A stretch of 40,025 nt of DNA from a virus, in the IMG/VR virus record IMGVR_UViG_3300021960_000187, positions 1 through 40,025 of that record. One strand, written 5' to 3'. Shown here in pieces: positions 12,449-26,514 of the stretch. The notes beneath the pieces are model-generated. The model worked only from the letters and a program-made list of their open reading frames with translations, did no database searches and had not been told where the DNA came from. The first letter of the stretch is position 1. The number at the start of each line of letters is the position of its first letter. The position numbers and the translations under genes are program-made.

Positions 12449-12976
12449 TTATATCGTAATTAATTTATAAGCAAGTGTTATTCTTAATCCAAGAAAATCT
12501 TTGGAAACGGGTTGAGAAAAATGCTTTATGTATCCAGCAAAATAAACACCAGAAAATGGTTCTGGATATACTGTATAAACATCTTCTTCGCAGTCAAATA
12601 CAGTTGCTCCAGCATATTCAATATTCCAATAATCATTGCAATAAATTAAAAGCGTTCTTGAATTCTCTCTGGTATCATCTTCATGAAGATATCCTTGCTG
12701 TCCAAATGTATGCCCATTTAGATAAATTCGTTGAACCTTTACATCTTCATTGCAATAACATTTAATATGTTTTTTGATTGAATCAAATAATATTTCACTA
12801 AAAAATTTATTATTTTCTACATTTAAGTACCAAAATAATTTATTTTTATTTTCTTCATTGCTGGAGCCACTAAATTTCCATCCTGGAGAATCATTAGATT
12901 CATTCAGTAATTTTATTTCATTTAATAACTGAACTTTTTCATTATCAGTTAATATATCCAAAAGTTTTACTATCAT
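12449..12976 (-). CDS. 2OG-Fe(II) oxygenase-like protein, prolyl-4-hydroxylase-like layout
   Basis: 175 residues. H98-x-D100 (GYLHEDDTRENSRTLLIYCN) and H152 (GYIKHFSQPV), then R165 (GLRITLAYKL), form the expected iron and cosubstrate sites. The wording 'H-x-D ... LLIYCN..W....GATVFD' is like P4H-type phage oxygenases. First gene of the halogenase island, lying 24 bases after the glycine-rich adhesin gene. I see no good ribosome site. Its substrate could be a protein, and the neighbouring glycine-rich adhesin is a candidate only by position. Confidence 0.85.
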   Translation of the reverse strand: MIVKLLDILTDNEKVQLLNEIKLLNESNDSPGWKFSGSSNEENKNKLFWYLNVENNKFFSEILFDSIKKHIKCYCNEDVKVQRIYLNGHTFGQQGYLHEDDTRENSRTLLIYCNDYWNIEYAGATVFDCEEDVYTVYPEPFSGVYFAGYIKHFSQPVSKDFLGLRITLAYKLITI

Positions 12977-13000: not shown

Positions 13001-13915
13001 TTATGTGGTTTTCCTAAATGTTGGTATAGATCTACCTCGAATTACAACTAAACCATGTCCACCGGGATTATCATTGTAAGCTCCGTTTCCACTTCCTTGA
13101 ATGCCAGCTCCGCCTGCATATGGAGTACCCCCACCACTAGCAAAAACTCCGTTAAGGGGAGATAATCCTGGAAGACCTAGATTACTAGATGTCATTCCAT
13201 ATTCTGTCATATTTCTTGATGATCCTCCGCCGGGACCACATCCCCCGGATCCGGGGGATCCTTCACTAAATGTTGCTCCTGGGACAGATCCTGGATCGCC
13301 TGAACCACCAGCCCATTGGTTATTGTGTCCACAACCACCACCGCCGCCAGAACCACCACTATCACCACCAAAACTGCCTGCAGGTTGTCCTGAAGAAGTT
13401 CCTCCTCCACCACCTCCAGCGGCAGTATAACTTTGAATAGAGCTACCATTTCCAGGATATCCTCTACCAGCCTGATAGAGGGTTCTTTGTCCACCAGATC
13501 CAGTTGTAATTTGGAGTGTTCCTTGAGCTGGAAAATTTTCATTATAAAAAACGAGTCTACCAGCGCCACCACCACCAGAAGTATGCCCACTTGGCATACC
13601 GCCAGTTCCGCCACCACCACCTACCATAAAAGCAGTGATAGCACTCCCTCCTGCAGATGCAGCAGCTCCTCTAATAAATTTACTTTTTACATAACCAGCA
13701 GCTGTGGTTTTCCCACCAATAGTAAGAGTTCCTGTTTGATTTTGATTACTTCCTTGTGGAGTTGTATTACTAAATACATAAAAAGTACTACTAACCCCAA
13801 CAACTTTGCTAGAGCCTGTTCCAGTAATAGAAGTAACTTCTGCAGCAAGACTATTTAATCCAGAAATATCATCAGTTACGTGATAAATCGTACTTAGTCT
13901 GTTTAAGATGTTCAT
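13001..13915 (-). CDS. Glycine-rich adhesin-like tail fibre tip protein
   Basis: 304 residues. The N-terminal ~90 residues are ordinary Ser/Thr/Gly beta sequence and probably attach to the fibre. Residues ~95-290 are dominated by Gly runs separated by short loops, ending in GGHGLVVIRGRS. This resembles the glycine-rich domain of phage receptor-binding proteins (T2/S16 gp38-like polyglycine-II sandwich) and the common 'GG.G.VVIIRY' ending of cyanophage fibres. The tip loops would contact the host receptor. It follows the chaperone-like gene directly, as gp38-type adhesins often do. Confidence 0.8.
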   Translation of the reverse strand: MNILNRLSTIYHVTDDISGLNSLAAEVTSITGTGSSKVVGVSSTFYVFSNTTPQGSNQNQTGTLTIGGKTTAAGYVKSKFIRGAAASAGGSAITAFMVGGGGGTGGMPSGHTSGGGGAGRLVFYNENFPAQGTLQITTGSGGQRTLYQAGRGYPGNGSSIQSYTAAGGGGGGTSSGQPAGSFGGDSGGSGGGGGCGHNNQWAGGSGDPGSVPGATFSEGSPGSGGCGPGGGSSRNMTEYGMTSSNLGLPGLSPLNGVFASGGGTPYAGGAGIQGSGNGAYNDNPGGHGLVVIRGRSIPTFRKTT

Positions 13916-13918
13916 GGT

Positions 13919-14386
13919 TTAATTTATGTCTAAATTAAAATGATCGATGATACATTGTGGAGGAGTTGGCCAAGTAAAGTCAAGTGGATCTGTAATTGTA
14001 GATGGAAAATCTCTCAATGCTTTTCTATATGCTAATAGATTATCTTTTTCTTCTTCCGTAATTGGATAATCAGAATGCATTAATTGATCTGTCTCAACTA
14101 ATCTTGCATTTCTTTGACTTCTCATCAAATTCCACATTTCAACTTCTGAAATTTCTTCTACTTTTCTTGGAACTACATTCCATGTTAAAGCATCAGAATC
14201 CCATTCTAATTCTTCTGTGCTAGTATCATGTGCTGGTTTGAAATATGGACCCGTTGCTCCAACATCAGCAAGCTCTTCATCTGTCCATGAACTTGGTTCA
14301 GTTCTAATTTGCCCAGATGACAAAAGTATACTGGTAATAAAAATTGGTTCGGTGCCATTAAAAGAAAAATACATTGTTCTGTCCAT
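13919..14386 (-). CDS. Tail fibre assembly chaperone-like protein
   Basis: 155 residues. Residues ~82-145 match the layout of phage tail assembly chaperones: W-N-L-M-R-S-Q-R-N followed by ETDQLMHSDYPITEEEKDN, then YRKALRDFP and a TWPTPP end. Those proteins help fold or attach tail fibres and usually sit beside the fibre or adhesin gene, as here with the glycine-rich protein three bases downstream. AAAGGAGAG precedes the ATG. It occupies the place that MAHFA-type proteins hold in the other cassettes, though before rather than after the adhesin. Confidence 0.8.
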   Translation of the reverse strand: MDRTMYFSFNGTEPIFITSILLSSGQIRTEPSSWTDEELADVGATGPYFKPAHDTSTEELEWDSDALTWNVVPRKVEEISEVEMWNLMRSQRNARLVETDQLMHSDYPITEEEKDNLLAYRKALRDFPSTITDPLDFTWPTPPQCIIDHFNLDIN

Positions 14387-14406
14387 TTATTCTCTCCTTT
14401 GAGAAA

Positions 14407-14778
14407 TTACGAAATAGTTTCGTATGAAATTACAACATCAAATGCGTTAGAAGCTGATGATGTAGCAACAAGAGATGTATTTTCCGTTAGATAAAGCGAA
14501 GATGCTCTATCAAGAACAACGAGAGATGTTTGTGATGTAATACCAACGTTCTTAGTAATACCATATGCAGTTCCACCGCCAGCTGCATTATTGTTCCAAG
14601 TTAAAGTAAAGTTAGCGGTACTGGAGCTTACGTTACATGCTTCAACGAAATTAACTTTATATACAACTCCACTTGCTGCAGCGTTAGAAAGAATAGATGT
14701 TGCACTGGTATTGGATAATGCTGTTGCAGTGGTTATTCCATTAATAGTCGCAACATTAACAATATTTGGGTTTGCCAT
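14407..14778 (-). CDS. Small virion beta protein, 'PNI' family copy 1
   Basis: 123 residues beginning MANPNIVNVATINGITTATA and ending DVVISYETIS. It shares its whole layout with the genes at 25737 and 23485: a PNI start, a Val-rich first strand, a middle strand series with TN-rich loops, 'YLTEN.SL' and 'SYE' at the end. Probably a small head- or tail-associated beta-sandwich protein; no enzyme motif. A TATAAATA box lies 24 bases before the ATG, so late expression is likely. Confidence 0.8.
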   Translation of the reverse strand: MANPNIVNVATINGITTATALSNTSATSILSNAAASGVVYKVNFVEACNVSSSTANFTLTWNNNAAGGGTAYGITKNVGITSQTSLVVLDRASSLYLTENTSLVATSSASNAFDVVISYETIS

Positions 14779-14801
14779 TGTTTACTTCTTTTCGTTTGGT
14801 T

Positions 14802-14809
14802 TATTTATA
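14802..14809 (-). promoter_or_regulatory. T4-type late promoter box TATAAATA
   Basis: An exact TATAAATA on the minus strand 24 bases before ATG 14778, in a 49-base AT-rich gap. It matches the T4 late-promoter -10 used by gp55-type sigma. Confidence 0.75.
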
Positions 14810-14827
14810 TTGTTATTTATTATATTC

Positions 14828-15073
14828 TCAAGTCCTGAATTCATCAAATTTTAATATCTTTTTGAAAGCAATTGCCTTTGCAGACGTCACTGAAGTTAAA
14901 TTTGTCAGGTTTGCACCATCTCCAGAAAAAGATGTTGCAGTTACTACACCAGTGATGTTCACTCCACCTGCACAAGTTACAGCATAACCTGCAGAAACAA
15001 CTGCTCCGTTATCTATTACTGGAGCTCCTGTTCCTAATCTATTCGTTATTTGATCTACTTTGAGTGTTGACAT
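14828..15073 (-). CDS. Short fibre-repeat structural protein
   Basis: 81 residues: an MSTLKVDQITNRLGTGAPVI start, then the repeat NITGVVTATSFSGDGANLTN, then a short tail with KKILKF. The repeat is the one found in the large fibre proteins of this window. It is too short to be a fibre alone and probably adds a tip or trimeric segment. It is the last of four or five such genes in a row. Confidence 0.75.
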   Translation of the reverse strand: MSTLKVDQITNRLGTGAPVIDNGAVVSAGYAVTCAGGVNITGVVTATSFSGDGANLTNLTSVTSAKAIAFKKILKFDEFRT

Positions 15074-15074
15074 T

Positions 15075-15299
15075 TTAAATCACAGTGTAAAGTGCTATTA
15101 TTTGACCTATAGGAGCTAAAGGTAAATTTGTGAGGGCAGATCCATCTCCATAAAAAGATGTTGCAGTAATAACTCCAGATACATTTAATCCACTGGTTGT
15201 TAAAGCATAACCTGGAGAAACTGAAAGCCCAAAAGGAAAACTAACAGCTATTCCTGTTGTTGATGGTTCTATACTATTTACTCTAAGTTGAGATGACAT
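15075..15299 (-). CDS. Short fibre-repeat structural protein
   Basis: 74 residues: MSSQLRVNSIEPSTTGIAVS, then LNVSGVITATSFYGDGSALT and a short hydrophobic end (APIGQIIALYTVI). It is built like its neighbours (common N-terminal strand, one repeat, variable tail) and looks like a duplicated tip module. It ends one base before the next gene. Confidence 0.75.
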   Translation of the reverse strand: MSSQLRVNSIEPSTTGIAVSFPFGLSVSPGYALTTSGLNVSGVITATSFYGDGSALTNLPLAPIGQIIALYTVI

Positions 15300-15307
15300 G
15301 ATTTTTA

Positions 15308-15526
15308 CTATATAAAAGAAAGAGCAATTCCTTTTGAAACATTTACTCCTGGTAGATTTGTAAGTGCAGATCCATCTCCAGAAAAAGATGTTGCAGTTGC
15401 GACACCAGTAATACTTACGCTATTTGCAGTTAAAGTTTGATTCGCTGCTAATCCCATACCTTTAGGAAAAGTGATTGCACCTGTTCCTTCACCATTAGAA
15501 AGAGAATTAACCGTTATTTTCGACAT
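15308..15526 (-). CDS. Short fibre-repeat structural protein
   Basis: 72 residues: MSKITVNSLSNGEGTGAITF, a SITGVATATSFSGDGSALTN repeat, and the tail PGVNVSKGIALSFI. GGGGAGG before the ATG is a strong ribosome site. It is related to the 15075 and 14828 genes by N-terminus and repeat. Confidence 0.75.
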   Translation of the reverse strand: MSKITVNSLSNGEGTGAITFPKGMGLAANQTLTANSVSITGVATATSFSGDGSALTNLPGVNVSKGIALSFI

Positions 15527-15541
15527 AAAACATTCCTCCCC

Positions 15542-15781
15542 TTATAGTACAGAATATGAAACACCGGCACCAACAGTAATAGTTTGTCCAACACCGATTG
15601 TAATTGGACCTATCTGAGCATAATTAAAGTCACTATTGGACAGAGTAATAGAAGATGTTATAACGTTAGGATTGGAAATAATAGTGGCTGTCAATATACC
15701 AACGCTGACTTCATCAGAAGCAGAAACTTCTTGAATTTGTCCGTTATTTGGATTATAAACTAGAGGAATTCTTTCTGGCAT
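15542..15781 (-). CDS. Small virion protein, 79 residues
   Basis: It begins MPERIPLVYNPNNGQIQEVS and continues with Ile/Val/Thr-rich strands (ILTATIISNPNVITSSITL) ending GAGVSYSVL. It has no fibre repeat but a similar beta character and sits in the fibre run. A TATAAATA box is at 15811-15818. Probably a small structural protein of cyanophage fibres. Confidence 0.7.
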   Translation of the reverse strand: MPERIPLVYNPNNGQIQEVSASDEVSVGILTATIISNPNVITSSITLSNSDFNYAQIGPITIGVGQTITVGAGVSYSVL

Positions 15782-15805
15782 TGATATTGTCCAATACTAA
15801 TTTAT

Positions 15806-16666
15806 TTATGTATTTATAGTGGCTGTACCACCACCCCTCAATCCCAATATGAGACTAGAACCAACAAGGTTAATTGTTGCTGCAGTATTTGGATCTCTTC
15901 TACCAATAGTGAGAGTTTTGTTAATGGTAACTACACTTGTTGTCAGTCCAACATTTGTTACTGCAGCACCCACAAAGTTTAAGTGAGTGATTCCTGTGCC
16001 GACAAAATCACTGAAACTATTGGAGGAAATACCAAGAGAACCGCCACCACCGCCACCAGAGATGCTAACATCAACAGTGGTTCCATTTAGAGCAAATGTA
16101 TTACCTGCTCCAATAAAGTTAATTTGCGTAACGCCATAACCAACCAGAGTTCCAGCCGATTGAATACCAACGCCAATACCACCACCAACAAATTGTGCAG
16201 CAGTTACGACACCAGTTACATTCAAATCACCACCAGAGTTCCAAGAAGGACCACCTGCTGAAAGTTTAGGAGGTGTTACTGTTCCATCTGGTATGGTATT
16301 TAATGAAAGTGCAGTTCCAAGTAACTTACCAGAAAATGTAAGTCCAGAAGTTGGTGCAGGACCAGTAAAGGTGATATTAGAACCAGAAATTGTATAATCA
16401 GTTCCTGGTGCCTGAATAACACCACCAAGATTAATATCAAGTTGTTGAGCATTAACTGGAGAAACTGCTGTTCCCCCAGAAGTTAATGCAAAAGTTAATG
16501 TGACTCCATTAAAAGAACCACTGATATCATCAAGAACTTGAATATTCGCTGCAGTTGCTGACGAATAACTCTGCCATAGGGTTCCATTCCATTGATAAGA
16601 GAACCCAGATGTGGAATCCGTATATACGCTGCCTATACCAGGATTATTTGGAAAATTTAATGCCAC
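15806..16666 (-). CDS. Fibre-repeat structural protein, 286 residues
   Basis: GTG start (16666). The N-terminus reads MALNFPNNPGIGSVYTDSTS with an 'F.YQWNGTLWQSY' strand found at the base of many phage fibre proteins. It has a middle beta domain, then a WNSGGDLNVTGVVTAAQFVG repeat around 140-160 and two GGGGG-type turns. Probably a trimeric fibre or fibre base. It is the first gene after the 16703 terminator and has its own TATAAATA box (16693-16700). Confidence 0.75.
   Translation of the reverse strand: MALNFPNNPGIGSVYTDSTSGFSYQWNGTLWQSYSSATAANIQVLDDISGSFNGVTLTFALTSGGTAVSPVNAQQLDINLGGVIQAPGTDYTISGSNITFTGPAPTSGLTFSGKLLGTALSLNTIPDGTVTPPKLSAGGPSWNSGGDLNVTGVVTAAQFVGGGIGVGIQSAGTLVGYGVTQINFIGAGNTFALNGTTVDVSISGGGGGGSLGISSNSFSDFVGTGITHLNFVGAAVTNVGLTTSVVTINKTLTIGRRDPNTAATINLVGSSLILGLRGGGTATINT
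15811..15818 (-). promoter_or_regulatory. Late promoter box TATAAATA inside a gene end
   Basis: An exact TATAAATA on the minus strand, 30 bases before ATG 15781. It overlaps the last codons (Ala-Thr-Ile-Asn-Thr-stop) of the 15806 gene, so promoter and coding sequence share bases. Confidence 0.7.
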
Positions 16667-16692
16667 GGCACTTTTATTCTACTTCTTTTACT

Positions 16693-16700
16693 TATTTATA
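16693..16700 (-). promoter_or_regulatory. Late promoter box TATAAATA
   Basis: An exact TATAAATA 27 bases before the GTG start at 16666. It follows the T-run of the 16703 terminator by two bases, so a terminator and a new late start are back to back. Confidence 0.75.
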
Positions 16701-16702
16701 AC

Positions 16703-16733
16703 AAAAAAACCCCTTAGGGGCAATCTAAGAGGT
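16703..16733 (-). terminator. Rho-independent-type terminator
   Basis: The minus-strand stem ACCTCTTAG / CTAAGGGGT (nine pairs, one G-U) has the loop ATTGCCC and is followed by seven T. It ends the MAHFA transcript of the third cassette and separates it from the fibre gene at 16666. Bases 16734-16761 up to the stop are non-coding. Confidence 0.85.
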
Positions 16734-16761
16734 GTGTAAAAAAGAGTTATTTTATTTTTAC

Positions 16762-17175
16762 TCAAATCAATGATTTTAATACCCATCCAGTTGTATTATC
16801 TGCCTGATATGCATCTTCATCCCAACAATAGTATAAACATGCTTCTACTTCTGCATCAGTACGAGCAGGTTCTGTGCCCAGAGGTGATATCCAATGAGCA
16901 GTTGTGTTGTCTAGAACCCACGAAGCAAAAGGCTTAGGAGGTACAAATGCATCAAGTACTTCATTATATGAATAACCAATACCGGCAAAACGAGTTCTTA
17001 TATTGTTATTATATGATGTTTGTTTCCAATTAGTATCTACACCAAAAATTTTCTTACAAAACGCAATTCCAATTTCTTCCACTTCTACTCCATTAATATC
17101 TGAAGTATCTTCGTTACTCACAACAATGACTTGAGTAACTATGTTATTTTCGTCTAGTTGTGCAAAATGTGCCAT
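16762..17175 (-). CDS. MAHFA-type cyanophage protein, copy 3
   Basis: 137 residues beginning MAHFAQLDENNIVTQVIVVS. Shared features with the two other copies are DINGVE.EEIG.AFCKK near residue 30, NWKQTSYN, a GIGYSYNE segment, PPKPFASWVL and a Trp-rich end. It is nearest to the copy at 22119; the first ~130 bases of the two are close to identical. It lies right after the glycine-rich adhesin in its cassette, where a chaperone for the adhesin would be expected. That role is inference. Confidence 0.85.
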   Translation of the reverse strand: MAHFAQLDENNIVTQVIVVSNEDTSDINGVEVEEIGIAFCKKIFGVDTNWKQTSYNNNIRTRFAGIGYSYNEVLDAFVPPKPFASWVLDNTTAHWISPLGTEPARTDAEVEACLYYCWDEDAYQADNTTGWVLKSLI

Positions 17176-17223
17176 TGTTTTATGTTAAGTATTTACTAAT
17201 ATAAAAGTATTCTATTATAAAAT

Positions 17224-18186
17224 TTATATCCAACGAGTTTTGTATCTAATTAATACAACACCGGGACCTCCTGAACCTCCACCCAGTATACCACCATTAT
17301 TACCAGCGCCACCGCCGCCTCCACCAGTATTAGTTGTACCAGGAGTTCCAGGAGTATTAGTACCACCAGGTCCGCCACCACCTGTTCCACCCGGAGCAGC
17401 AGGCCAGCGTGTCGCTAGATTTTCTTGTGCGGCATTGCCGCCGCCACCACCACCTCCGCCAAACCATCCACTATCACCAACAGAAGTTCCAAAATATGGA
17501 GAAAAGTCTGTGCCAATGCCACCAGCTCTAGCATAATTCAGCCCCCATCCTCCAGGAGGTGGGGCTACATTTGAACCGGGAGCTCCTGCGCCGCCACCGC
17601 CGCCACCAGAACCTGGAGATGAGGGATTTCCATAGGCAATAGCTTGAGCTGGAACTGGGTATGGATCTGCTAAACCACTACTTGCACCACCAGAACCGCC
17701 AGGATAACCATCGACAGGTCCACCATTACTTGCCCTACCACCACCTCCTCCTCTGGCAGTTAATATTCCAACAAGACTACTATCACTTCCTCTAGGTGTT
17801 GTGGTAAATCTTCCAGCAGGATTTGAACCGCTTCCTATCGAAACTGTGTAACTTCCCGCTGTTAAGACATGTCCTGGTAAAAATGCAACCCCACCTGCAC
17901 CTCCGGCATTACTGTTGTATCCATCTCCACCTCCTCCACCACCGGCAACGACAAGAACATCAACAGCATCTCCAAAAGAACCAACAGAAGTAACTGAAAG
18001 AGTTCCTGACGTAGTAAATTTATGAATTGTATAATCGCTATAGTAAACTATTGTGCCACCTGAAGCGATTATTCCACCAGCAGCCGCTCCCCCACCACGA
18101 ACAAAACTATCTCTTTGATAACTCAATAAATGCCCATCGCTTCTAGTATTTTGTCTCTTATTCTTATTAGTGGTTTTTGCTCCCAT
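17224..18186 (-). CDS. Glycine-rich adhesin-like protein, cassette 3
   Basis: 320 residues. A basic start (MGAKTTNKNKRQNTRSDGHL) is followed by a beta region with SGGTIVYYSDYTIHKFTTSG and VDVLVVAGGGGGGDGYN, the typical entry to a Gly-rich domain. Long Gly/Pro loops then run to a GGPGVVLIRY end. This matches the Gly-rich receptor-binding fold seen in the other three cassettes. The PG-rich loops, including collagen-like GTPGT repeats, are the most likely receptor contacts. Confidence 0.8.
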   Translation of the reverse strand: MGAKTTNKNKRQNTRSDGHLLSYQRDSFVRGGGAAAGGIIASGGTIVYYSDYTIHKFTTSGTLSVTSVGSFGDAVDVLVVAGGGGGGDGYNSNAGGAGGVAFLPGHVLTAGSYTVSIGSGSNPAGRFTTTPRGSDSSLVGILTARGGGGGRASNGGPVDGYPGGSGGASSGLADPYPVPAQAIAYGNPSSPGSGGGGGGAGAPGSNVAPPPGGWGLNYARAGGIGTDFSPYFGTSVGDSGWFGGGGGGGGNAAQENLATRWPAAPGGTGGGGPGGTNTPGTPGTTNTGGGGGGAGNNGGILGGGSGGPGVVLIRYKTRWI

Positions 18187-18201
18187 TTTTTTTTACCTAC
18201 T

Positions 18202-18600
18202 TCAATTATCAGTGTCGCCAAGAATTTGGTAGTTTACAGCACTACCAATGCCAGATCCTCCTAGAGCAGGAGCTCCAACTTCTACAACAATTTTGTCTTG
18301 ATTAGTCAAAACCAATGGATAGTTTGTTTCAAAAAAGAATGTTTCGTTTGCTGCCAAATCAACCTTTGATAATCTATATGCAGTATATCCATATCCAGTG
18401 ATAGCATCAACACCACTTGGATAAACATATAACGCTGATGTGCAAGTTGCAAGTCCTGTATTGTGAGCAATTAATCCACGAACATATGTTGTTCCTGCAA
18501 CTCCAGCCCCAGTATTTGTAACTCCTGCTGTAAAAATACCAACCGTCGCAATACCAGTAACTGATTGTACACTTAAAAGTTTTGTTCTACGAAGTGCCAT
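18202..18600 (-). CDS. Small virion beta protein, divergent member of the PNI position
   Basis: 132 residues beginning MALRRTKLLSVQSVTGIATV and ending AVNYQILGDTDN. It takes the place that PNI proteins hold in the other cassettes and has a similar sequence plan (a strand-rich middle, 'PLVLTNQDKIVVEVG' near the end). Direct identity is low. Probably a small structural beta-sandwich. A CATAAATA box (18618-18625) lies before the ATG. Confidence 0.75.
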   Translation of the reverse strand: MALRRTKLLSVQSVTGIATVGIFTAGVTNTGAGVAGTTYVRGLIAHNTGLATCTSALYVYPSGVDAITGYGYTAYRLSKVDLAANETFFFETNYPLVLTNQDKIVVEVGAPALGGSGIGSAVNYQILGDTDN

Positions 18601-18617
18601 TTTACTATCTTTTTAGT

Positions 18618-18625
18618 TATTTATG
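18618..18625 (-). promoter_or_regulatory. Late-promoter-like box CATAAATA
   Basis: Seven of eight bases match TATAAATA, 18 bases before ATG 18600. The same variant appears before the 22529, 26514 and 21348 genes, which suggests a functional variant rather than chance. Confidence 0.45.
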
Positions 18626-18627
18626 TT

Positions 18628-19305
18628 TCATCCAAAAAGCATACTGTCAAGTTCTGTATAACCAGCAGGAATACTTAGTCCAGTAAGATTTGCTCCATCA
18701 CCACTGAATGATGTTGCAGTAATTGCACCTGCACTAACGTTTCCTGCGTCATAAACAGTAAAACCAGTTCCTACGGTTAATCTGCTACCATTTTGAACTG
18801 TTGCAGTATTACCAATAGAAACACCATAATTAAAAATCCAAGCATCAGTTCCTAATCCAGAATAATGACTTTGTTTTACCCACATAATTTGTTTATTAGT
18901 AGGTAAATCACTATTGACTCCATCAGTAGGAATATCAATAATTGGTGTTCCTACAGTTGATGCAATTGAAATGCCACCATGATTGGCAGTAATATCATTT
19001 GCTACATTGTTACCAAGAACATCTGTCGTAATACCAAGAGTGATGTCTTTATCATTAATTTGAAGGGTAGCAGCGTTTAAAATTACTGAGGTGCCACCAA
19101 CACTTAATGTTCCATTGACTGTCGCATTTGTAACAGTAATACTTGGATTACCTGTTAATCCACCCGCGTTTCCAGTTACATTACCAGTTACATTACCAGT
19201 TACATTACCAGTCAAATCACCACTAAAACTAGAAGCAGTAACTATACCCGCTAGATTTAAACTGCCATTAAGTGGATTTAATAATTGGGCTTTTGTTTGC
19301 GCCAT
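18628..19305 (-). CDS. Fibre-repeat structural protein, 225 residues
   Basis: It begins MAQTKAQLLNPLNGSLNLAG, then IVTASSFSGDLTGNVTGNVT, where a 12-base unit is repeated to give four GNVT/GNVT-like steps. Later come SVGGTSVILNAATLQINDKD, typical of a fibre 'neck', and a C-terminal TATSFSGDGANLTG repeat. Probably a short trimeric fibre or fibre segment opening cassette 3. A TATAAATA box is 32 bases upstream of the ATG. Confidence 0.8.
   Translation of the reverse strand: MAQTKAQLLNPLNGSLNLAGIVTASSFSGDLTGNVTGNVTGNVTGNAGGLTGNPSITVTNATVNGTLSVGGTSVILNAATLQINDKDITLGITTDVLGNNVANDITANHGGISIASTVGTPIIDIPTDGVNSDLPTNKQIMWVKQSHYSGLGTDAWIFNYGVSIGNTATVQNGSRLTVGTGFTVYDAGNVSAGAITATSFSGDGANLTGLSIPAGYTELDSMLFG
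19173..19212. repeat. 12-base tandem repeat coding GNVT
   Basis: Three exact copies of the plus-strand unit AGTTACATTACC, then a variant. It encodes a Val-Thr-Gly-Asn step in the fibre protein at 19305, and slippage there would change fibre length. Confidence 0.8.
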
Positions 19306-19336
19306 TATAACCCTTTAGATACTTTTATGCTTTGAA

Positions 19337-19344
19337 TATTTATA
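19337..19344 (-). promoter_or_regulatory. Late promoter box TATAAATA
   Basis: Exact match, 32 bases before ATG 19305 and just after the stop of the oxygenase at 19347, in a 41-base gap. Confidence 0.75.
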
Positions 19345-19346
19345 AT

Positions 19347-19895
19347 CTAAACAGATTGATGTTTTGGAAGTTTGGGTAATAAATCAAAAGAAATAATCGT
19401 TCGTTGCTTTCTTGACTGATTGGGATGAGCGAAATGTAAAGTATAGGAAGGAACAATAAACAGTGTGCCCTCTTTCACATCTTGTGGATATGCAAGAGTT
19501 GTTGTATCTGTTCTTGGATCTTGCCAGGGGGCAAGAAAACAAGTAGGAGTATGATATTTTGAGTCATACTCGACATAAAGAACACCAGAAAATCCCCAAC
19601 TTTTATGGTTGTGAATACCTTGATAGTCTCCTTGTTTATATCTGACTACCCAACAATCAGTCATGCTACAAGTGACTTGTGCTTCCCGACAAAACTCATT
19701 TAATTCTGGACGAATAATTTCTTGAAAGTAATGTAGATATGATTTCTTGTTAGTGCTTCTGTCTGTCTCAAAAGTTTGCAGAGTGGTTCTTAAAAACTTT
19801 TGAGAGTTAATACGATTTAACAAACCCTTCTTTTTAAAATCCCAGTCATCAATCTGATATTGATAGGAAGGGTATTCAAAAAGTGGTGCCTTCAT
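19347..19895 (-). CDS. 2OG-Fe(II) oxygenase-like protein (HxH variant)
   Basis: 182 residues. The signature GIHNHKSWGFSGVLYVEY (93-110) and FIVPSYTLHFAHPNQSRKQR (146-165) match the phage 'putative 2OG-Fe(II) oxygenase' group, where the usual HxD reads HxH (H95, H97). A later His (154 or 157) and R165 complete the site. It starts by an ATGA overlap with the oxygenase upstream, so the two are translationally coupled. Substrate unknown. Last gene of the first oxygenase island. Confidence 0.8.
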   Translation of the reverse strand: MKAPLFEYPSYQYQIDDWDFKKKGLLNRINSQKFLRTTLQTFETDRSTNKKSYLHYFQEIIRPELNEFCREAQVTCSMTDCWVVRYKQGDYQGIHNHKSWGFSGVLYVEYDSKYHTPTCFLAPWQDPRTDTTTLAYPQDVKEGTLFIVPSYTLHFAHPNQSRKQRTIISFDLLPKLPKHQSV

Positions 19896-20620
19896 TTTGC
19901 TTTATCCCAAGCACATTCAGCTCTTTGTCCATCTTGAAGAACATAATGGAAAAAGATTTGATGATAATACAACCCTTCCTTTTCTTTCTTTTTACCATAC
20001 CAAGTTTTTTCATACTCAGTTGGCATTGGTTCGCGCCAATGTGGACGTTCACAACCTTTGTATACCATACCATCACCAGGTTGAAGAATCACGGAACGGT
20101 TCTCACCAGGAACTAATACCTGTGTTTTCTTTTCGTCGGTATAAGTATCTGGAGTTTTAATCCAAATAGGCCAGTCGGCATTTTCTCCAGTTAAATTGGT
20201 ACTGACATGAACAGTTACAGAGATTTCACATGCATCACGATCAGCATGACGAGTCAGTTCTTGTCCAGGATAATAAAATCTATCGTAATAATAGGTATTA
20301 TAAAGTTTACGTCCCAGATGTTCTTCCAGTTTCATACGAATACCAGAGTGAATCGCACGATACTGTGGATGCCAATAGCGTGAAGTAGAACCTTCAACCT
20401 GCTGTTCAACAGGAACATGATTGAAGTGCTCTGGATTCTTATCCCAGTAGTTGTACTGTCCTTTCTGCTCAGGAACAGGGTGATAAAGTTCTTCAGCATC
20501 CCAAAGATTTTTAATCACCAGATATCCATTTTTCTCAAAAGATTCATTGCGAGTCCAGGCAGTACCTGTATTCGTCCTTTCCTGCCATTGCAGGTGTTCT
20601 TCTGTCATTTGTTCTGCCAT
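19892..20620 (-). CDS. 2OG-Fe(II) oxygenase-like phage protein, 242 residues
   Basis: Start taken at ATG 20620 (MAEQMTEEHLQWQERTNTGT), with AGAGG ahead; the longer ORF to 20662 would overlap the endonuclease gene. H125-x-D127 in YYPGQELTRHADRDACEISV and H194 (GCERPHWRE) fit the iron site. The usual Arg is not obvious, and the end reads GLYYHQIFFHYVLQDG. I recognise the family from cyanophage genomes, where it is annotated as an oxygenase. Substrate unknown. Confidence 0.8.
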   Translation of the reverse strand: MAEQMTEEHLQWQERTNTGTAWTRNESFEKNGYLVIKNLWDAEELYHPVPEQKGQYNYWDKNPEHFNHVPVEQQVEGSTSRYWHPQYRAIHSGIRMKLEEHLGRKLYNTYYYDRFYYPGQELTRHADRDACEISVTVHVSTNLTGENADWPIWIKTPDTYTDEKKTQVLVPGENRSVILQPGDGMVYKGCERPHWREPMPTEYEKTWYGKKKEKEGLYYHQIFFHYVLQDGQRAECAWDKAK

Positions 20621-20622
20621 AG

Positions 20623-21348
20623 TTATACCTCTTTTTTGGTTTTTAATCCTCCCAAAATCCATCCTTCACCAGGACATTCTTTTGAGAACTTTTGTTGTTC
20701 ACCATTATTCCAAAGTTTTCTGCCAACTTTTGTTTGACCTATTTTATTACGAACTTCTGGTGGTGTTATTTTACCATAATTTGGATTTCCTTCACCTTTA
20801 TTATTTTTTCTAAACTTTTCTTTTGACTCTTCACTATGTTTTCTGCCAATCCAAGGATGTGGTTTAGTTTCCCAAACTTTTTTTATTTCTTGTTTTAAAA
20901 GTTCTCTTGTTTCTATTGAATGCGTTTTACCGTGAAATGGATTATTTTCTCCTTCATAAGATCTACGATTTTTTACATATCCGTTATTTTCTATTTGATG
21001 TTGACGAATAATTTTTTTCGTTTCTTCTGTGTGGGATTTTCCATAAAAAGGATTTTTTTCACCAAATTTTTTCTCCGCATAGTAAAATCCAGTTGTTTTT
21101 TGCCTTGCTTTATTTGCAAAATGTGGATTTTTATCTACTTGATAAAACTTATGTAAATCTACTTCGGCTTGAAGTGCTTCTTCCCTTGTAGAAAATGTTT
21201 CAAGAACTATCTTATTAGTTGGACTAAAAGTTTCGTCGTGATAAGAACCAAGATAATCATCATCCTCTGAGAGGCAGTTGCAGGTTCTACAACCTATGTA
21301 ACCCCTCCCAAATTCTTCATAAGAGTAATAGACATAATGATTTTCCAT
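20623..21348 (-). CDS. GIY-YIG homing endonuclease with NUMOD3 motifs
   Basis: 241 residues. The N-terminal catalytic domain is GIY-YIG-like: YVYYSYEEFGRGYIGCR (5-21) with the Tyr pair and R21, a Glu in TREEALQAEVDLHKFY (about 54-69) and N79 in FANKAR. Four NUMOD3-type DNA-binding repeats follow: NPFYGKSHTEETKK, NPFHGKTHSIETRE, HPWIGRKHSEESKE and NPNYGK. These free-standing nucleases cut cognate phage DNA lacking them and spread by repair. It sits between two oxygenase genes with no intron. A CATAAATA box lies inside an upstream stem-loop (21367-21397). Confidence 0.85.
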   Translation of the reverse strand: MENHYVYYSYEEFGRGYIGCRTCNCLSEDDDYLGSYHDETFSPTNKIVLETFSTREEALQAEVDLHKFYQVDKNPHFANKARQKTTGFYYAEKKFGEKNPFYGKSHTEETKKIIRQHQIENNGYVKNRRSYEGENNPFHGKTHSIETRELLKQEIKKVWETKPHPWIGRKHSEESKEKFRKNNKGEGNPNYGKITPPEVRNKIGQTKVGRKLWNNGEQQKFSKECPGEGWILGGLKTKKEV

Positions 21349-21366
21349 AGTTTATTTTAATGGATA

Positions 21367-21397
21367 TCGGTGGAAGTATTTATGTTACCTCCACCGA
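21367..21397 (-). promoter_or_regulatory. Stem-loop holding a late-type box before the endonuclease
   Basis: An 8-base perfect stem (TCGGTGGA / TCCACCGA) encloses a 15-base loop that contains CATAAATA (21377-21384). There is no T-run after it, so it is not a plain terminator. It resembles the arrangement known for I-TevI and related phage nucleases, where early message folds and only a late start is translated. Here no clear ribosome site lies in the stem, so this is only a suggestion. Confidence 0.5.
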
Positions 21398-21403
21398 AGT
21401 TCT

Positions 21404-22024
21404 TCATTTCCAACGTGGCCCACACGTCCAACCTACCAAACTCTTACGGGTTCCTTTTGTAACTTTAAGAACTCTATGCATTGTGCGAGAATCAAACAAA
21501 ATCACAGTACCACGCTTACGAGGAGCAATATAACTATTTCCTCCCTCATCAAGCAGTTGTAGGTTGCCACCTTCATAGTCATCAGGATCGCTCAACTGAA
21601 CCACAAAGGACAGTTTACGAACAAGTTCAATATTTTCATTTAAGAAATCTTGTGCAAGTCCTTCTTGACGATTACCAACAGTTACTGGTTTGTATTGAGT
21701 GGCAAGTCCTGCATCATTGTGCCAACCATAGAACTGTCCTTCACTATACTTTGTGAACTGCATTGACTCTCCATCAATACAACGGAGATCATATAGGAAG
21801 TTCTCGCGGTTTGCTCTTTGAATGTAATGCCACACAAATCCACCAACCCAGTGATTGGTAGGAATCCATGCGTTTTGAGAATTTCTTTTTTCTTTGTTTA
21901 AGGCATCTCCGTGCAACCTGGAGTCTGCCATTTGTTCATCAAACTTTTCTGTTAGATCTCTTTCGATAATATCTACTACATCTTCTGGTAGATCGCTAAA
22001 ATACCAAATTGATTGAAATGCCAT
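21404..22024 (-). CDS. PKHD-type 2OG-Fe(II) oxygenase
   Basis: 206 residues. It has the classic layout H102-x-D104 (YGWHNDAG), RKLSFVVQLSDPDDYEGGNL (136-155), H183 (SRTMHRVLKV) and R193 (GTRKSLVGWTCGPRWK). This matches the PKHD/PiuC-type hydroxylases that are common in cyanophages. The N-terminal ~85 residues form the usual cap. A perfect sigma70 promoter stands directly upstream, so unlike its fibre neighbours it is probably early. Substrate unproven; peptide, amino acid or protein hydroxylation are all possible. Confidence 0.9.
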   Translation of the reverse strand: MAFQSIWYFSDLPEDVVDIIERDLTEKFDEQMADSRLHGDALNKEKRNSQNAWIPTNHWVGGFVWHYIQRANRENFLYDLRCIDGESMQFTKYSEGQFYGWHNDAGLATQYKPVTVGNRQEGLAQDFLNENIELVRKLSFVVQLSDPDDYEGGNLQLLDEGGNSYIAPRKRGTVILFDSRTMHRVLKVTKGTRKSLVGWTCGPRWK

Positions 22025-22047
22025 ATTTGAATAATGTATTCAGTGTT

Positions 22048-22076
22048 ATTATATAGAAACTTTTTATGAATGTCAA
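22048..22076 (-). promoter_or_regulatory. Consensus sigma70 promoter inside the late gene region
   Basis: On the minus strand TTGACA (22071-22076) and TATAAT (22048-22053) are exactly 17 bases apart. The expected start is about 15-20 bases before ATG 22024; no Shine-Dalgarno is seen in that short leader. It would let host polymerase transcribe the oxygenase/endonuclease island. The 94-base gap 22025-22118 holds nothing else recognised. Confidence 0.85.
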
Positions 22077-22118
22077 TTTACAAGTTCTACTTTTACAATG
22101 TCTTTGTGCCTACCCTTA

Positions 22119-22529
22119 TCACCCCTCTTTAGGTGCTGATGGAGTTTCTAGAACCCACTCACCATTCTCTTCATTCCAACGATAGAATGAGCGTGCTGCG
22201 ACTTCTTCATCGGTTAGTGTGGGAGCAGGACCAACTGGTGATTCCCAATTAAAAATTTCTTCATTTAGAATCCAACTATCATAAGGTTTTGGTGGGATGA
22301 AGGCATCAAATGCTTCATTATAAGCGTAACCTATGCCAGCATAACGAACTCTTATATTTCCGTTATATGAAGTTTGTTTCCAATTGGTATCAGCACCTAG
22401 GAGTTTCTTACAGAAAGCAACTCCAATTTCTTCTGCTTCTACTCCATTAATATCTGAAGCATCTTCGTCACTTACAACAATAACTTGAGTAACAATATTA
22501 TTTTCATCTAGTTGTGCGAAATGTGCCAT
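22119..22529 (-). CDS. MAHFA-type cyanophage protein, copy 2
   Basis: 136 residues, MAHFAQLDENNIVTQVIVVS start, then DINGVEAEEIGVAFCKK, PPKPYDSWIL and a GEWVLE end. It is closely alike to the copy at 16762 (first 55 residues nearly the same) and less so to 24240. It ends the second cassette, just after the glycine-rich adhesin gene. A CATAAATA box (22562-22569) sits before it, so it may also have its own late start. Confidence 0.85.
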   Translation of the reverse strand: MAHFAQLDENNIVTQVIVVSDEDASDINGVEAEEIGVAFCKKLLGADTNWKQTSYNGNIRVRYAGIGYAYNEAFDAFIPPKPYDSWILNEEIFNWESPVGPAPTLTDEEVAARSFYRWNEENGEWVLETPSAPKEG

Positions 22530-22561
22530 TGTTAGTTACTGATTAATGAATAAGTTTGCCA

Positions 22562-22569
22562 TATTTATG
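22562..22569 (-). promoter_or_regulatory. Late-promoter-like box CATAAATA
   Basis: Seven of eight bases match TATAAATA, 33 bases before ATG 22529. It overlaps the stop region of the glycine-rich gene. Confidence 0.45.
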
Positions 22570-23482
22570 AAGGGTATGCGATGATGACAATACCAGAACC
22601 ACCATTAGCATCACCACCGCCACCACCTCCAGTATTTGTCGTGCCCGCACCGGCTGCCGCACCTCCGCCACCAACACCACCAGTGCCTGAGACAACCGGA
22701 TTGGGAGAAACCCCAGGTACAAAATAAAAGTTTCCTGCACCACCTCCAGCATAATATGTTGTTATTCCAGTTATGGTTGTTGATGCTCCAGAACCTCCAT
22801 TACCTGTTTGAGATGTGGTAGCATTACCTCCGCTACCACCGGCGCCACCGCCACCGCCGCTAGATATTAGGAAGTTATCAGTAGCTCCAGATCCTCCAGA
22901 ATTTCCTTGTGGCGGCGAAAATGGTGGAGTATTTCCACTTCCTGCTGCCCCCCAGCTTCCACCACCACCCGATCCTCCTGAAAGACCAGGATTTCCCTCA
23001 AATGCATTTGCGTTACTTGCTCCAGTTCCACCACCAGAAGCAGTTATAACTCCAACATAACCCACGCCAAGTACGGAATTACTACCATTGCTTGATGGTG
23101 GAGAAGTGGACCCAGATGATTTATTTCCACCCCCACCAACAGTAATTACATATATTCCAGAAGATGCACTTAATGGAAATGAAGATCCAGATCTAAATCC
23201 ACCACCACCACCGCCACCACCGGCATTATATCCACCACCGCCGCCACCTGCAACCACAATATAATTGACAGAAGTGAGTGTTGGGTTGCCAATGGTAAAA
23301 GTTCCAGATGATGTAAAAGTATGGACAGTCGTGGTTGGAGTATAGGAAATTGTGCCGCCAGATGCTTTAACTCTATCCCATTTTCCTAATCTATTTAAAT
23401 AATCTTGAGAAGAAATATTAAAGATTCCTCCATCAGTATAAGAAGTTATCGCATACCCAACTCGATTTCCAGTATGTCTCAT
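22565..23482 (-). CDS. Glycine-rich adhesin-like protein, cassette 2
   Basis: 305 residues. The start MRHTGNRVGYAITSYTDGGI leads to a strand region, then TVHTFTSSGTFTIGNPTLTS and VNYIVVAGGGGGGYNAGGGG, the common entry to a polyglycine receptor-binding domain. It ends GGSGIVIIAYPS. The Gly-rich loops between residues ~90 and 300 differ from those of the other three adhesins while the framework stays, as expected for a tip under host selection. It stops two bases from the upstream PNI gene. Confidence 0.8.
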   Translation of the reverse strand: MRHTGNRVGYAITSYTDGGIFNISSQDYLNRLGKWDRVKASGGTISYTPTTTVHTFTSSGTFTIGNPTLTSVNYIVVAGGGGGGYNAGGGGGGGGFRSGSSFPLSASSGIYVITVGGGGNKSSGSTSPPSSNGSNSVLGVGYVGVITASGGGTGASNANAFEGNPGLSGGSGGGGSWGAAGSGNTPPFSPPQGNSGGSGATDNFLISSGGGGGAGGSGGNATTSQTGNGGSGASTTITGITTYYAGGGAGNFYFVPGVSPNPVVSGTGGVGGGGAAAGAGTTNTGGGGGGDANGGSGIVIIAYPS

Positions 23483-23484
23483 AA

Positions 23485-23862
23485 TTAACTAACCTCCTCA
23501 TAGGAAGCGGTGATGTCAACTGAATTCAAATTTGTACATGTAGCACCAATAGATTGATTTTCCGTAATATAGTATGGAGTATCTTTACCAATCACTGTAA
23601 TAGTTGAACCAGTAGGAATTGCTATTGCAGATACAATAGAAGCAGAAGATCCAGCGCCAGTAGCAGAATTAAATAATTTTACAGTTAAATTTGTCGTTGC
23701 GCTTGATGTGTTAGATGCTAATAAAGAATTAACTCTCAATACTTTATTACTTGAAGCAGCATTTGTCACAATAATACTATTTGCAGATGTGCTACTGATT
23801 CCACTAACAAAAGTGTTTAATCCTACAATTGAAGTAATATTTGCTATATTGGGTGATGTCAT
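23485..23862 (-). CDS. Small virion beta protein, PNI family copy 2
   Basis: 125 residues, MTSPNIANITSIVGLNTFVS start and DITASYEEVS end. It is clearly related to 25737: both have a VL(R/K)VN..LA(S/A)NTS segment, VVIGKDTP-like 'V(I/L)GKDTP(Y/I)Y(I/L).ENQS' and SYEE(V/I)S. Probably a fibre or tail accessory protein. An AATAAATA box lies 23 bases before the ATG (23885-23892). Confidence 0.8.
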   Translation of the reverse strand: MTSPNIANITSIVGLNTFVSGISSTSANSIIVTNAASSNKVLRVNSLLASNTSSATTNLTVKLFNSATGAGSSASIVSAIAIPTGSTITVIGKDTPYYITENQSIGATCTNLNSVDITASYEEVS

Positions 23863-23890
23863 TTTTATTAATTTACTTTAAATGTATTTA

Positions 23891-24184
23891 TTAATATCCA
23901 AAGAAGAATGCTATAGACGAAACCCTTGAAGTAGAGAGTCCCGCAGATATTCCTGTTAATTGTGATCCAGATCCAACAAAACTAGTCGCTGTAACAATAC
24001 CAGATGAATTAATATTACTTGACGTTACGTTGTTAACAGTAATATTTGGTGTTCCTGATAATCCAGTTGCATTTCCATCAAAAGTAGTAGCAGTTGCAAC
24101 ACCAGTTACATTTACACCATTAGGAAACGTAGGAGCACCAGTTCCTAATTTATCTACATAACTATCGGCTCTTATTTTTGACAT
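23891..24184 (-). CDS. Short fibre-repeat structural protein
   Basis: 97 residues: MSKIRADSYVDKLGTGAPTF, then repeats NVTGVATATTFDGNATGLSG and SGIVTATSFVGSGSQLTGIS and a short end. The start is nearly the same as the 26134 gene's, and resembles an internal segment of the 756-residue fibre (RADNFANNAGTGAPTF), so these small genes look like cut-out copies of that fibre. Late box TATAAATA at 24204-24211. Confidence 0.8.
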   Translation of the reverse strand: MSKIRADSYVDKLGTGAPTFPNGVNVTGVATATTFDGNATGLSGTPNITVNNVTSSNINSSGIVTATSFVGSGSQLTGISAGLSTSRVSSIAFFFGY

Positions 24185-24203
24185 TTTACGATTACTTTGT
24201 AGA

Positions 24204-24211
24204 TATTTATA
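24204..24211 (-). promoter_or_regulatory. Late promoter box TATAAATA
   Basis: Exact match, 20 bases before ATG 24184, in a 55-base gap. It heads cassette 2. Confidence 0.75.
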
Positions 24212-24239
24212 TTAGTGGGTATTGGAAATGTCCTTTAAT

Positions 24240-24668
24240 TTACAGTGGTTCAATCAATCTCCAATTTTGATCTTTTTCAGACCATAGATAACGAAAACCT
24301 TCATTAAATTGTTCTTCTGTTAATTCTGGTTGCGGAAGAGGTGAATTCCAAGTATAAGTTTCTTCATCTAAAGTCCAAGACTCATAAGGTTTATGTGGTA
24401 TAAAAGCATCGTTTACTTCATCATAAGTGCCATCAATACCCGCAAAATTCTTTCTAAAAGGAGTTCCTCCAAGAAGATGAATTCCCTTGGACGTGTTATA
24501 ACTTGTTTGAATCCACCTATCATTGATTGAATCGGGAATTGTTGTTTTTAGATGTTCAACACCCAATTCTTCTCTTTCTATTCCATTTTCATCAGTAATA
24601 ATTAAGTCATCTACTACTGTTACATAGGTAACTATATTTTCTGAATTAACTCTTGCAAAATGTGCCAT
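24240..24668 (-). CDS. MAHFA-type cyanophage protein, copy 1
   Basis: 142 residues, beginning MAHFARVNSENIVTYVTVVD. It shares ENGIEREELG, RWIQTSYN, FAGIDGTYDEVNDAFIPHKP and a Trp-rich C-terminus with the other two copies, but carries an insert (GIHLLGGTPFRKN, about 70-83) they lack. It is the most diverged of the three. It ends cassette 1. Confidence 0.85.
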   Translation of the reverse strand: MAHFARVNSENIVTYVTVVDDLIITDENGIEREELGVEHLKTTIPDSINDRWIQTSYNTSKGIHLLGGTPFRKNFAGIDGTYDEVNDAFIPHKPYESWTLDEETYTWNSPLPQPELTEEQFNEGFRYLWSEKDQNWRLIEPL

Positions 24669-24677
24669 TTTTCTATA

Positions 24678-25727
24678 TCAATATGGTGCTTGATTTGTTG
24701 TACGAGAATATCTTAGAATCACAATTCCGCCTCCCCCTGAACCTGCGCCTTGCGGACCGCCGCCACCGCCACCGCCACTTCCAGTTATTGCTACTCCATT
24801 TCCACGAGAATCGGGATTTGGGTTGGGACCACCAGCGCCGCCGCCGCCAGATCCCCCCGCTCCTCCTGCACCAGGAGATCCACTTCCCCTTCCACCTCCA
24901 CCGCCTCCATATAATCCGGTAGGTCCTGTAGCAGAAATAAATGCAGGTTGTTGTGGTGCTGGTAGTGTTGGTGCAATAATTGGTGCTGGGAAAATTGTGA
25001 AGGATCTACCTGCACCGCCTGAACCACCACCGCCAGGAGGATTGGAAGTTCCTCCGCCACCAGAACCACCTGCTCCACCGCCACCACCATCTCCTCCACC
25101 TGGGTTAGCGCCAGCGCCACCAGGATTACCATATCCAGTCATAATACCCGCCGATGATGGGAATGGTACTTGAAGTGCTGTACCGCCGGGTTTGGTCGGA
25201 TTATCGCTGATGCCACCGCCACCAGAACCACCGTTAACACCCAAACCAGGTCCGCCACCCCAACCGCCGGTACCACCACCAAAAGCAGTGAATGCAATTC
25301 CCGCACTCGGAGAAGAAAATGTTGTAGGACTTCCACTGCTAGAACTACCACCACCGCCTCCTACAGTGATAGTATAAGTCCCTACGCCAACTGCAATTTG
25401 GGTTCCATAAAGAATTCCACCCGCACCGCCGCCGCCGTAAAAACCACCGCCGCCGCCACCAATCATCAAAATATCAACATTTGATCCAGTCGTAACAGTC
25501 AATGTTGTTGGAGAAGTGAAAACTCTATATTCAACATCCCCTGATTGAGTAGTTGCACCACCAACAGCTTCAAAAACTTTTGAAAATCTTGGCCACCAAA
25601 TGCCACCCAATTTTTCTTCTATTCTTTTATTCCATTCAATATCATTCAAATACCAAATACCAGAAGATCCTAGTACAGTTCCAGTTTGAGCAATTCCTAA
25701 CCAACTTCCAACTCTTTTTGCACCCAT
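24678..25727 (-). CDS. Glycine-rich adhesin-like protein, cassette 1
   Basis: 349 residues, the longest of the four. It begins MGAKRVGSWLGIAQTGTVLG and the next ~60 residues are a Trp-containing attachment part. Then come YRVFTSPTTLTVTTGSNVDI and ILMIGGGGGGFYGGGGAGGI, followed by about 200 residues of Gly-rich loops ending GGGGIVILRYSR. The plan is the same as the adhesins at 22565 and 17224, with different loops. Confidence 0.8.
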   Translation of the reverse strand: MGAKRVGSWLGIAQTGTVLGSSGIWYLNDIEWNKRIEEKLGGIWWPRFSKVFEAVGGATTQSGDVEYRVFTSPTTLTVTTGSNVDILMIGGGGGGFYGGGGAGGILYGTQIAVGVGTYTITVGGGGGSSSSGSPTTFSSPSAGIAFTAFGGGTGGWGGGPGLGVNGGSGGGGISDNPTKPGGTALQVPFPSSAGIMTGYGNPGGAGANPGGGDGGGGGAGGSGGGGTSNPPGGGGSGGAGRSFTIFPAPIIAPTLPAPQQPAFISATGPTGLYGGGGGGRGSGSPGAGGAGGSGGGGAGGPNPNPDSRGNGVAITGSGGGGGGGPQGAGSGGGGIVILRYSRTTNQAPY

Positions 25728-25736
25728 TTTCTTACC

Positions 25737-26108
25737 TCAACTAATTTCTTCATAAGAACAAACAATATCAACAGCATTGGTATATCCTGCCAAAGCTGCT
25801 AAAGATTGATTTTCTTGAAGGTAAATTGGGGTGTCTTTTCCAAGAACAACAACTGTTGATGCTGTAGGAACTGAAATTGATGATGCTATAGAGACGGAAC
25901 TGCCAGCGCCTGCTGCTAAATTAAATATTTTAACAGAAACTGATTGTGTAATAGCAGATGTATTTGCTGCTAAAATTGTATTCACCTTTAATACTTTGTT
26001 ACTTCCGCTAGCATTAGACAAGAAGGAAACAGAATTCGTTGTTGTTAGTCCAACAAATGTAGATATTCCAGTAATTATTGTTAATGCTGCAATATTTGGT
26101 GCTGCCAT
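25737..26108 (-). CDS. Small virion beta protein, PNI family copy 3
   Basis: 123 residues, MAAPNIAALTIITGISTFVG start. Matches to 23485 include VLKVNTILAANTS, VVVLGKDTPIYLQENQSL and VCSYEEIS. It belongs to cassette 1. An exact TATAAATA box (26131-26138) is 22 bases upstream, overlapping the stop of the preceding gene. Confidence 0.8.
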   Translation of the reverse strand: MAAPNIAALTIITGISTFVGLTTTNSVSFLSNASGSNKVLKVNTILAANTSAITQSVSVKIFNLAAGAGSSVSIASSISVPTASTVVVLGKDTPIYLQENQSLAALAGYTNAVDIVCSYEEIS

Positions 26109-26130
26109 TGTTTCTTTTTACTTGTATTTG

Positions 26131-26138
26131 TATTTATA
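26131..26138 (-). promoter_or_regulatory. Late promoter box TATAAATA
   Basis: Exact match, 22 bases before ATG 26108. It overlaps the final codons and stop of the 26134 gene. Confidence 0.7.
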
Positions 26139-26514
26139 AACTAAAGACGTATCCAACAGCAGAAAAACCTCCTCCGCCGCCAGCAATGTTGACAGTAGCG
26201 ATACCAGATCCAACAGTTACTGTGGAAATTCCAGATCCTCTAAAATCTAAAAATGTTGCGCCAGTTCCTACAGTTCCTCCTGCAGTTTGAATACCAACTC
26301 CAGCAACTAATCCAGTAAGAAGAGAACCATCACCTTTAAACGAGGTGGCAGTAACAACTCCAGTAATATTAACACCACCATTGTTAATGGTAGCTCCTGC
26401 ACCAACAATTGCTGAGGTGGCAGTAAGAACGCCAGTAACATTCAGTCCTGCGGTGAATGTGGGAGCACCAGTTCCTAATCTATCTACATAACTATCAGCT
26501 CTTACCTTTGACAT
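26134..26514 (-). CDS. Short fibre-repeat structural protein, 126 residues
   Basis: MSKVRADSYVDRLGTGAPTF start, then NVTGVLTATSAIVGAGATIN, NITGVVTATSFKGDGSLLTG, and a strand region ending FSAVGYVFSL. Its repeat DNA is alike over stretches of more than 70 bases to two parts of the 756-residue fibre gene (around 31910-31985 and 31500-31570), which supports its origin by duplication. It heads cassette 1. CATAAATA box at 26534-26541. Confidence 0.8.
   Translation of the reverse strand: MSKVRADSYVDRLGTGAPTFTAGLNVTGVLTATSAIVGAGATINNGGVNITGVVTATSFKGDGSLLTGLVAGVGIQTAGGTVGTGATFLDFRGSGISTVTVGSGIATVNIAGGGGGFSAVGYVFSL

Follow-up and report, generated by a model that had tools for sequence, protein, structure and literature searches.

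Four gene sets for putative receptor-binding fibre tips in an ocean virus of bacteria, with a candidate joint between shaft and head

Gene content of the cassette array

The window, by which we mean the whole stretch of 40,025 nucleotides analyzed here (IMGVR_UViG_3300021960_000187), comes from an ocean virus of bacteria and carries four neighboring gene sets. Each set appears to provide all the parts of a receptor-binding fibre tip, in which a joint connects a short shaft to a glycine-rich sticky head. All cassette genes lie on the minus strand in the ORF listing. A preliminary description of this DNA had proposed repeated cassettes, with copies 1 and 2 complete in the order short fibre, PNI gene, glycine-rich adhesin, and MAHFA gene, and both the ORFs and their order were found where it had placed them. 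Cassette 1 begins with the short fibre fib1 (26134..26514), for which ORF, repeat, and tag analysis gave a C-terminal tag ending in ...GGFSAVGYVFSL, and continues with the PNI-type adaptor pni1 (25737..26108), which is predicted to fold as a jelly roll, the head adh1 (24678..25727), which has a short N-terminal dock, and the MAHFA gene mah1 (24240..24668; phrog_7759, 5e-37). Cassette 2 consists of fib2 (23891..24184; tag ...SRVSSIAFFFGY), the PNI-type adaptor pni2 (23485..23862), the head adh2 (22565..23482), and mah2 (22119..22529).

Cassette 3 comprises fib3 (18628..19305; tag ...YTELDSMLFG), an adaptor (18202..18600), the head adh3 (17224..18186), whose dock RSDGHLLSYQRDSFVRG is common to other heads of the same cassette type, and mah3 (16762..17175; phrog_7759, 9e-44). 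The gene order agrees with the preliminary description, but the second gene, taken there for a divergent member, belongs to another family: it shows no BLAST similarity to the PNI adaptors and matches phrog_20100 over its full length (E = 7e-44), and we refer to it as the MAL type. Homology between PNI and MAL adaptors was unsupported by profile comparison (4% probability), and single-profile scores were weak.

The fibres of cassette 4 together span 14828-16666. The first, fib4a (15806..16666), has a GTG start and matches a tail fibre family (phrog_18673, 4e-20), and it is followed by a small fibre-associated protein (15542..15781) that holds the same position in contigs L197 and L238. Three short fibre paralogues then stand in a row (14828-15526) with distinct tails, at 15308..15526 (...KGIALSFI), 15075..15299 (...GQIIALYTVI), and 14828..15073 (...AKAIAFKKILKFDEFRT), and lead into the PNI-type adaptor pni4 (14407..14778), whose nearest relative is in L238 (57%). 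L197 and L238 contain this trio as well, and in P-RSM4 three paralogues of about 290 residues each are consecutive; the three of cassette 4 might form one heterotrimeric shaft. A tail assembly chaperone-like gene (13919..14386) and the head adh4 (13001..13915) complete the set. The several short fibres and the chaperone-like gene had been described correctly, although the latter precedes the adhesin rather than standing in the place of MAHFA.

The motif TATAAATA, which we take to be a T4-like late promoter core, sits in short gaps ahead of fib2 (24204-24211), fib3 (19337-19344), fib4a (16693-16700), and pni4, and CATAAATA sits ahead of fib1. The exact matches to TATAAATA were all on the coding strand (6/6), and their total count was not above chance.

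The array is not continuous, given that copies 2 and 3 are split by a 2.7-kb block (19347-22024) that encodes a 2OG oxygenase, a homing endonuclease, a ferrochelatase-like protein, and another 2OG oxygenase. The gene order across this block is the same in L198 and L201, and the block genes show about 73-87% nucleotide identity across many phages, flanked by variable fibre cassettes. Two sister contigs (L170 and L171) match the window with 100% identity below 21882 and break off at that same base, within a conserved 2OG oxygenase gene, which suggests a junction that varies among strains or is hard to assemble. Because both end there, the linkage of cassettes 1 and 2 to cassettes 3 and 4 rests on this one contig, a 40-kb fragment. 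Directly after cassette 4 lie a tryptophan halogenase-like gene and more oxygenase-like genes (10240-12976). At the other end of the array, 26542-33114 encodes a 756-residue fibre ending in ...LLAGASVNFS and then a 1429-residue protein starting with MGVIIPQVVTEDRASGALVVDGSLRFD; a similar pair is present in L202 and may represent a further type of shaft-head docking that uses no adaptor.

Glycine-rich heads and MAHFA proteins

The heads adh1 (28.5 bits), adh2 (69.3 bits), and adh3 (53.8 bits) passed the gathering cut-off of PF21722 (Gly_rich_2; 24.3 bits), whereas adh4 scored below it (18.3 bits). Pam3 gp24, the solved fibre of a freshwater myocyanophage with TNF-like and glycine-rich receptor-recognition domains (PDB 7YPX, PMC9608196), falls just under the same cut-off (23.8 bits) with nearly the full domain covered, and a profile built from the window heads scored 11.3 bits on gp24 compared to -1.8 bits for the best of 500 shuffles. 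Given the common PF21722 domain and this profile score, the window heads most likely have a fold of the gp24 type, and we infer that they bind receptors. Where gp24 has an alpha-helical N-terminal domain for docking to the baseplate, the window heads start with a dock just 40-60 residues or so in length. Neither phmmer nor profile searches matched them to a PDB sequence, S16 gp38 included, although low-complexity bias filters may mask weak matches, and a tblastn search of the adhesin against phages gave no match, probably because low-complexity filtering removes it. Many heads at other loci (L042, L047, L050, and L093) end in ...HTFTSSGTFTA, which resembles the opening strands of another glycine-rich domain, as though such a domain had been truncated or the existing one had undergone circular permutation.

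The MAHFA gene is tied to the head, given that it follows a glycine-rich protein in 105/136 cases, including loci where there is no adaptor. Its AlphaFold model is very confident (mah1, pLDDT 96.6). A comparison of this model with the PDB returned no fold match (best E 1.1), known tail-fibre chaperones included, and hhalign gave a probability of 1% against Pam3 gp25; neither fold nor profile places MAHFA among chaperones of the Pam3 gp25/Mu Tfa type. Because the model matches no solved structure, a chaperone role for MAHFA is a guess from its position, from which we suppose that MAHFA, or the chaperone-like protein in copy 4, would aid head folding or assembly. The copy 4 protein belongs to Phage_tail_APC (PF16778, 61.1 bits against a cut-off of 26.6).

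Matching of fibre tails, adaptors, and head docks

We gathered adaptor genes from virus contigs and compared the C-terminal residues of the preceding gene in 90 non-redundant cassettes. Each adaptor type had its own upstream tail: ...GKAIAMAIVFG or similar for PNI, ...NELDAALFN for MALKRT, ...DITASLFT for MALKKT, ...DTWLYGGG for MALERG, ...SLGLAIALGG for MAEAFS, and ...ALAIALG for MANTFK. Similarity among adaptors followed similarity among tails (n = 90; Mantel rho 0.50, reached in 0/5000 permutations), compared to a rho of 0.12 for the adjacent upstream fibre region. The nearest tail, defined by the last 14 residues, gave the right adaptor cluster in 87/90 cassettes versus 66/90 for the upstream fibre control, and shuffled labels did so in a mean of 36% of cases, with a maximum of 53%. 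On the downstream side, the first 38 residues of the head also agreed with the adaptor (rho 0.43, 43/44 matched), whereas the head body did so far less (rho 0.095, 22/44, with about 16 expected by chance). Some adaptors had no fitting tag upstream (L053 and L221). A full-text literature search found no paper on the commonest tag, KAIAMAIVFG.

Given that neighboring genes are co-inherited and that even the control fibre region was above chance, part of the match between tail and adaptor could be due to linkage. We consider it quite improbable, however, that linkage accounts for all of the matching, with clusters that travel together and products that make no direct contact, since the match peaks at the fibre end (last 14 residues) and the head start (first 38 residues), and elsewhere it is much weaker. 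Similar tails also occur on upstream genes whose products range from 57 to 1951 residues, which likewise speaks against linkage alone.

In many phages (e.g., L096, L103, L106, and L111), the fibre and glycine-rich head are a single protein. An adaptor stood ahead of 0/86 such fused heads and 73/173 short-dock heads, a comparison that is partly biased given that the adaptor served as the query for many of the loci.

AlphaFold modelled the PNI adaptor confidently as a jelly roll (pLDDT 91) whose N-terminus is less certain but conserved, with P4 and N5 invariant in the alignment. Among solved structures, the model came closest to jelly rolls that form oligomers (the spore-appendage protein Ena, the nucleophosmin core, the BC2L-C lectin, and the Sf6 tail-needle knob), and among predicted viral structures it resembled phage proteins named virion structural protein as well as larger proteins. 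One of these, a 368-residue protein of S-SKS1 that was identified by its length, has a fibre-like start, and the adaptor fold would sit toward its C-terminus. In S-SCSM1, a distant relative of the window phage, a 112-residue relative of the fold has the long tail fibre gene, which ends in ...PFILALGGN, on one side and a tail fibre gene on the other, and it carries the label of virion protein in its record. Mass spectrometry identified 45 proteins in the S-SCSM1 virion (PMC9602691), and the label presumably means that this protein was detected in that proteome. The ...ALG tail with the same gene order is also found in S-TIM5, HTVC106P, HTVC010P, and Melnitz.

These relatives bear on whether the adaptor stays in the particle. 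It could be a dedicated assembly chaperone that leaves before the virion is complete, so that the tag matching would reflect chaperone-client specificity; chaperone genes often adjoin fibre genes, and Pam3 gp25 is missing from virions (PMC9608196). This explanation seems unlikely to us, given that the adaptor fits the tail encoded before it as well as the dock encoded after it, that fused shaft-head proteins occur without it, that a fold relative in S-SCSM1 is recorded as a virion protein, and that its fold lies within a larger fibre-like protein in S-SKS1. Considered with the jelly-roll model and the PF21722 domain held in common with gp24, the matching of tail and dock, the fused heads without adaptors, and the fold relatives in S-SCSM1 and S-SKS1 make it probable that the small protein is a joint, holding the tag of a shaft on one side and the docking peptide of an exchangeable head on the other, giving one tip per cassette.

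In this proposed joint, the short trimeric beta-repeat fibre would be the shaft, with an N-terminus that presumably docks on the virion, and its last 10-14, mostly hydrophobic residues would form the tag bound by the jelly-roll adaptor of the next gene, as suggested by the matched sequence types. The adaptor would in turn bind the N-terminal dock, some 40 residues long, of the protein encoded next. This is normally a glycine-rich head, which is expected to have a TNF-like/polyglycine fold resembling that of Pam3 gp24. From the sequence matches, we infer physical contact among tag, adaptor, and dock. With the MAEAFS and MANTFK adaptor types, the next gene is often another fibre rather than a head, so the joint may elsewhere also link shaft to shaft. 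Tags within one phage were less alike than under random reassortment (7/5000). Because the cassettes of one phage use different tag, adaptor, and dock types, several heads could be built side by side, and head bodies would be exchangeable between phages behind a conserved dock. Whether this extends to a general rule in marine phages is, in our estimation, evenly balanced: peptide tags that exclude one another, together with their matching jelly-roll joints, may act as an address code by which a virion displays 3-5 different receptor-binding heads, each on its own shaft, with heads spreading between phages by recombination behind the conserved dock.

The host recognition of cyanophages and pelagiphages is largely unknown given that their fibre genes resemble little annotated sequence, and a sequence rule for shaft, joint, and head would flag receptor-binding heads in many marine phage genomes. 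A shaft-end peptide that matches its own joint would let one virus build different heads with their parts unmixed. The rule would explain how a phage carries several heads without misassembly, and it would provide a directly testable protein-protein code.

Literature searches found no description of this cassette arrangement, and the known systems resemble it in part. In S16/T2-type phages, a system cited in PMC9608196, gp38 is a separate polyglycine adhesin with variable loops on the tip of the gp37 fibre. The window likewise has a separate glycine-rich adhesin that would be mounted at the tip, but it shows no sequence match to this system and would place a jelly-roll adaptor between shaft and head, and phages of the window type have several shaft/head sets each. 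Branched systems of the CBA120/KP32 kind similarly mount more than one receptor-binding protein on each virion through docking elements dedicated to this. The anchor domains there lie inside the spikes, whereas separate adaptor proteins and C-terminal fibre tags would be used here. The knee cap gp35 of T4 is a small separate protein connecting two long tail fibre segments (PMC6957217). The likeness to gp35 is one of analogy alone, and the window adaptors differ in that they come in tag-matched types and also bear terminal heads. Pam3 gp24/gp25 shares with the window the PF21722 glycine-rich domain, an adjacent assembly-protein gene, and the TNF-like and glycine-rich architecture expected for the window heads. 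However, gp24 is a single fibre that docks itself by an alpha-helical N-terminus and needs neither a shaft nor an adaptor of its own, and gp25 is Tfa-like, whereas MAHFA shows no Tfa-like fold.

Origin and distribution of the cassettes

BLAST comparisons within the window found fib1 and fib2 similar beyond chance (E = 5e-23) and pni1 54% identical to pni2 (1e-42) and 41% identical to pni4 (1e-24). The closest MAHFA pair in the window was mah2 and mah3 (64%, 2e-64), mah1 and mah2 were 44% identical (7e-34), and adhesin pairs gave scarcely any alignment. The preliminary view of conserved framework genes around variable glycine-rich heads was supported. The sets do look like receptor-binding units, as it had proposed, whereas their amplification as wholes is not supported, given that the members are of mixed ancestry.

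Alternatively, the cassettes could descend from a single four-gene unit that was copied before its loops diverged. This origin would be compatible with the joint mechanism and could be argued from the identical gene order across cassettes, the similarity of pni1 and pni2, the nearly identical DNA upstream and at the start of fib1 and fib2, and a MAHFA tree in which a single in-window clade was not rejected (AU p = 0.51), although that tree is low in power. We regard it as an unlikely origin, since the cassettes use different adaptor families, the nearest relatives of the window members lie mostly in other phages, and the N-terminal dock and body of each adhesin have their nearest relatives in different phages. 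Even mah2 is closer to the MAHFA proteins of MAL-type cassettes in other phages (78-79%) than to mah3. Given these outside relatives and the differing relatives of dock and body, we conclude that the array was assembled mostly by module exchange, and cassettes 1 and 2 may share a duplicated 5' part. For the MAHFA gene, an old duplication may have been followed by exchange, given that the tree does not reject a single in-window clade.

Related phages carry the same module of a short fibre, a small jelly-roll protein, a variable head, and often MAHFA. The number of cassettes varies among relatives, as the preliminary description had anticipated, given that Synechococcus phage Bellamy has four in a row, several virus contigs have two to five each, S-SM2 shares the neighboring oxygenase and ferrochelatase genes and has no adhesin cassettes there, and P-RSM4 has one fused head in the corresponding region. 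At five other loci (L103, L105, L106, L111, and L096), fused fibre-head genes occur in tandem triplets with a different N-terminal type in each copy; one MAHFA gene follows the triplet, and in L096 there is one MAHFA gene per head.
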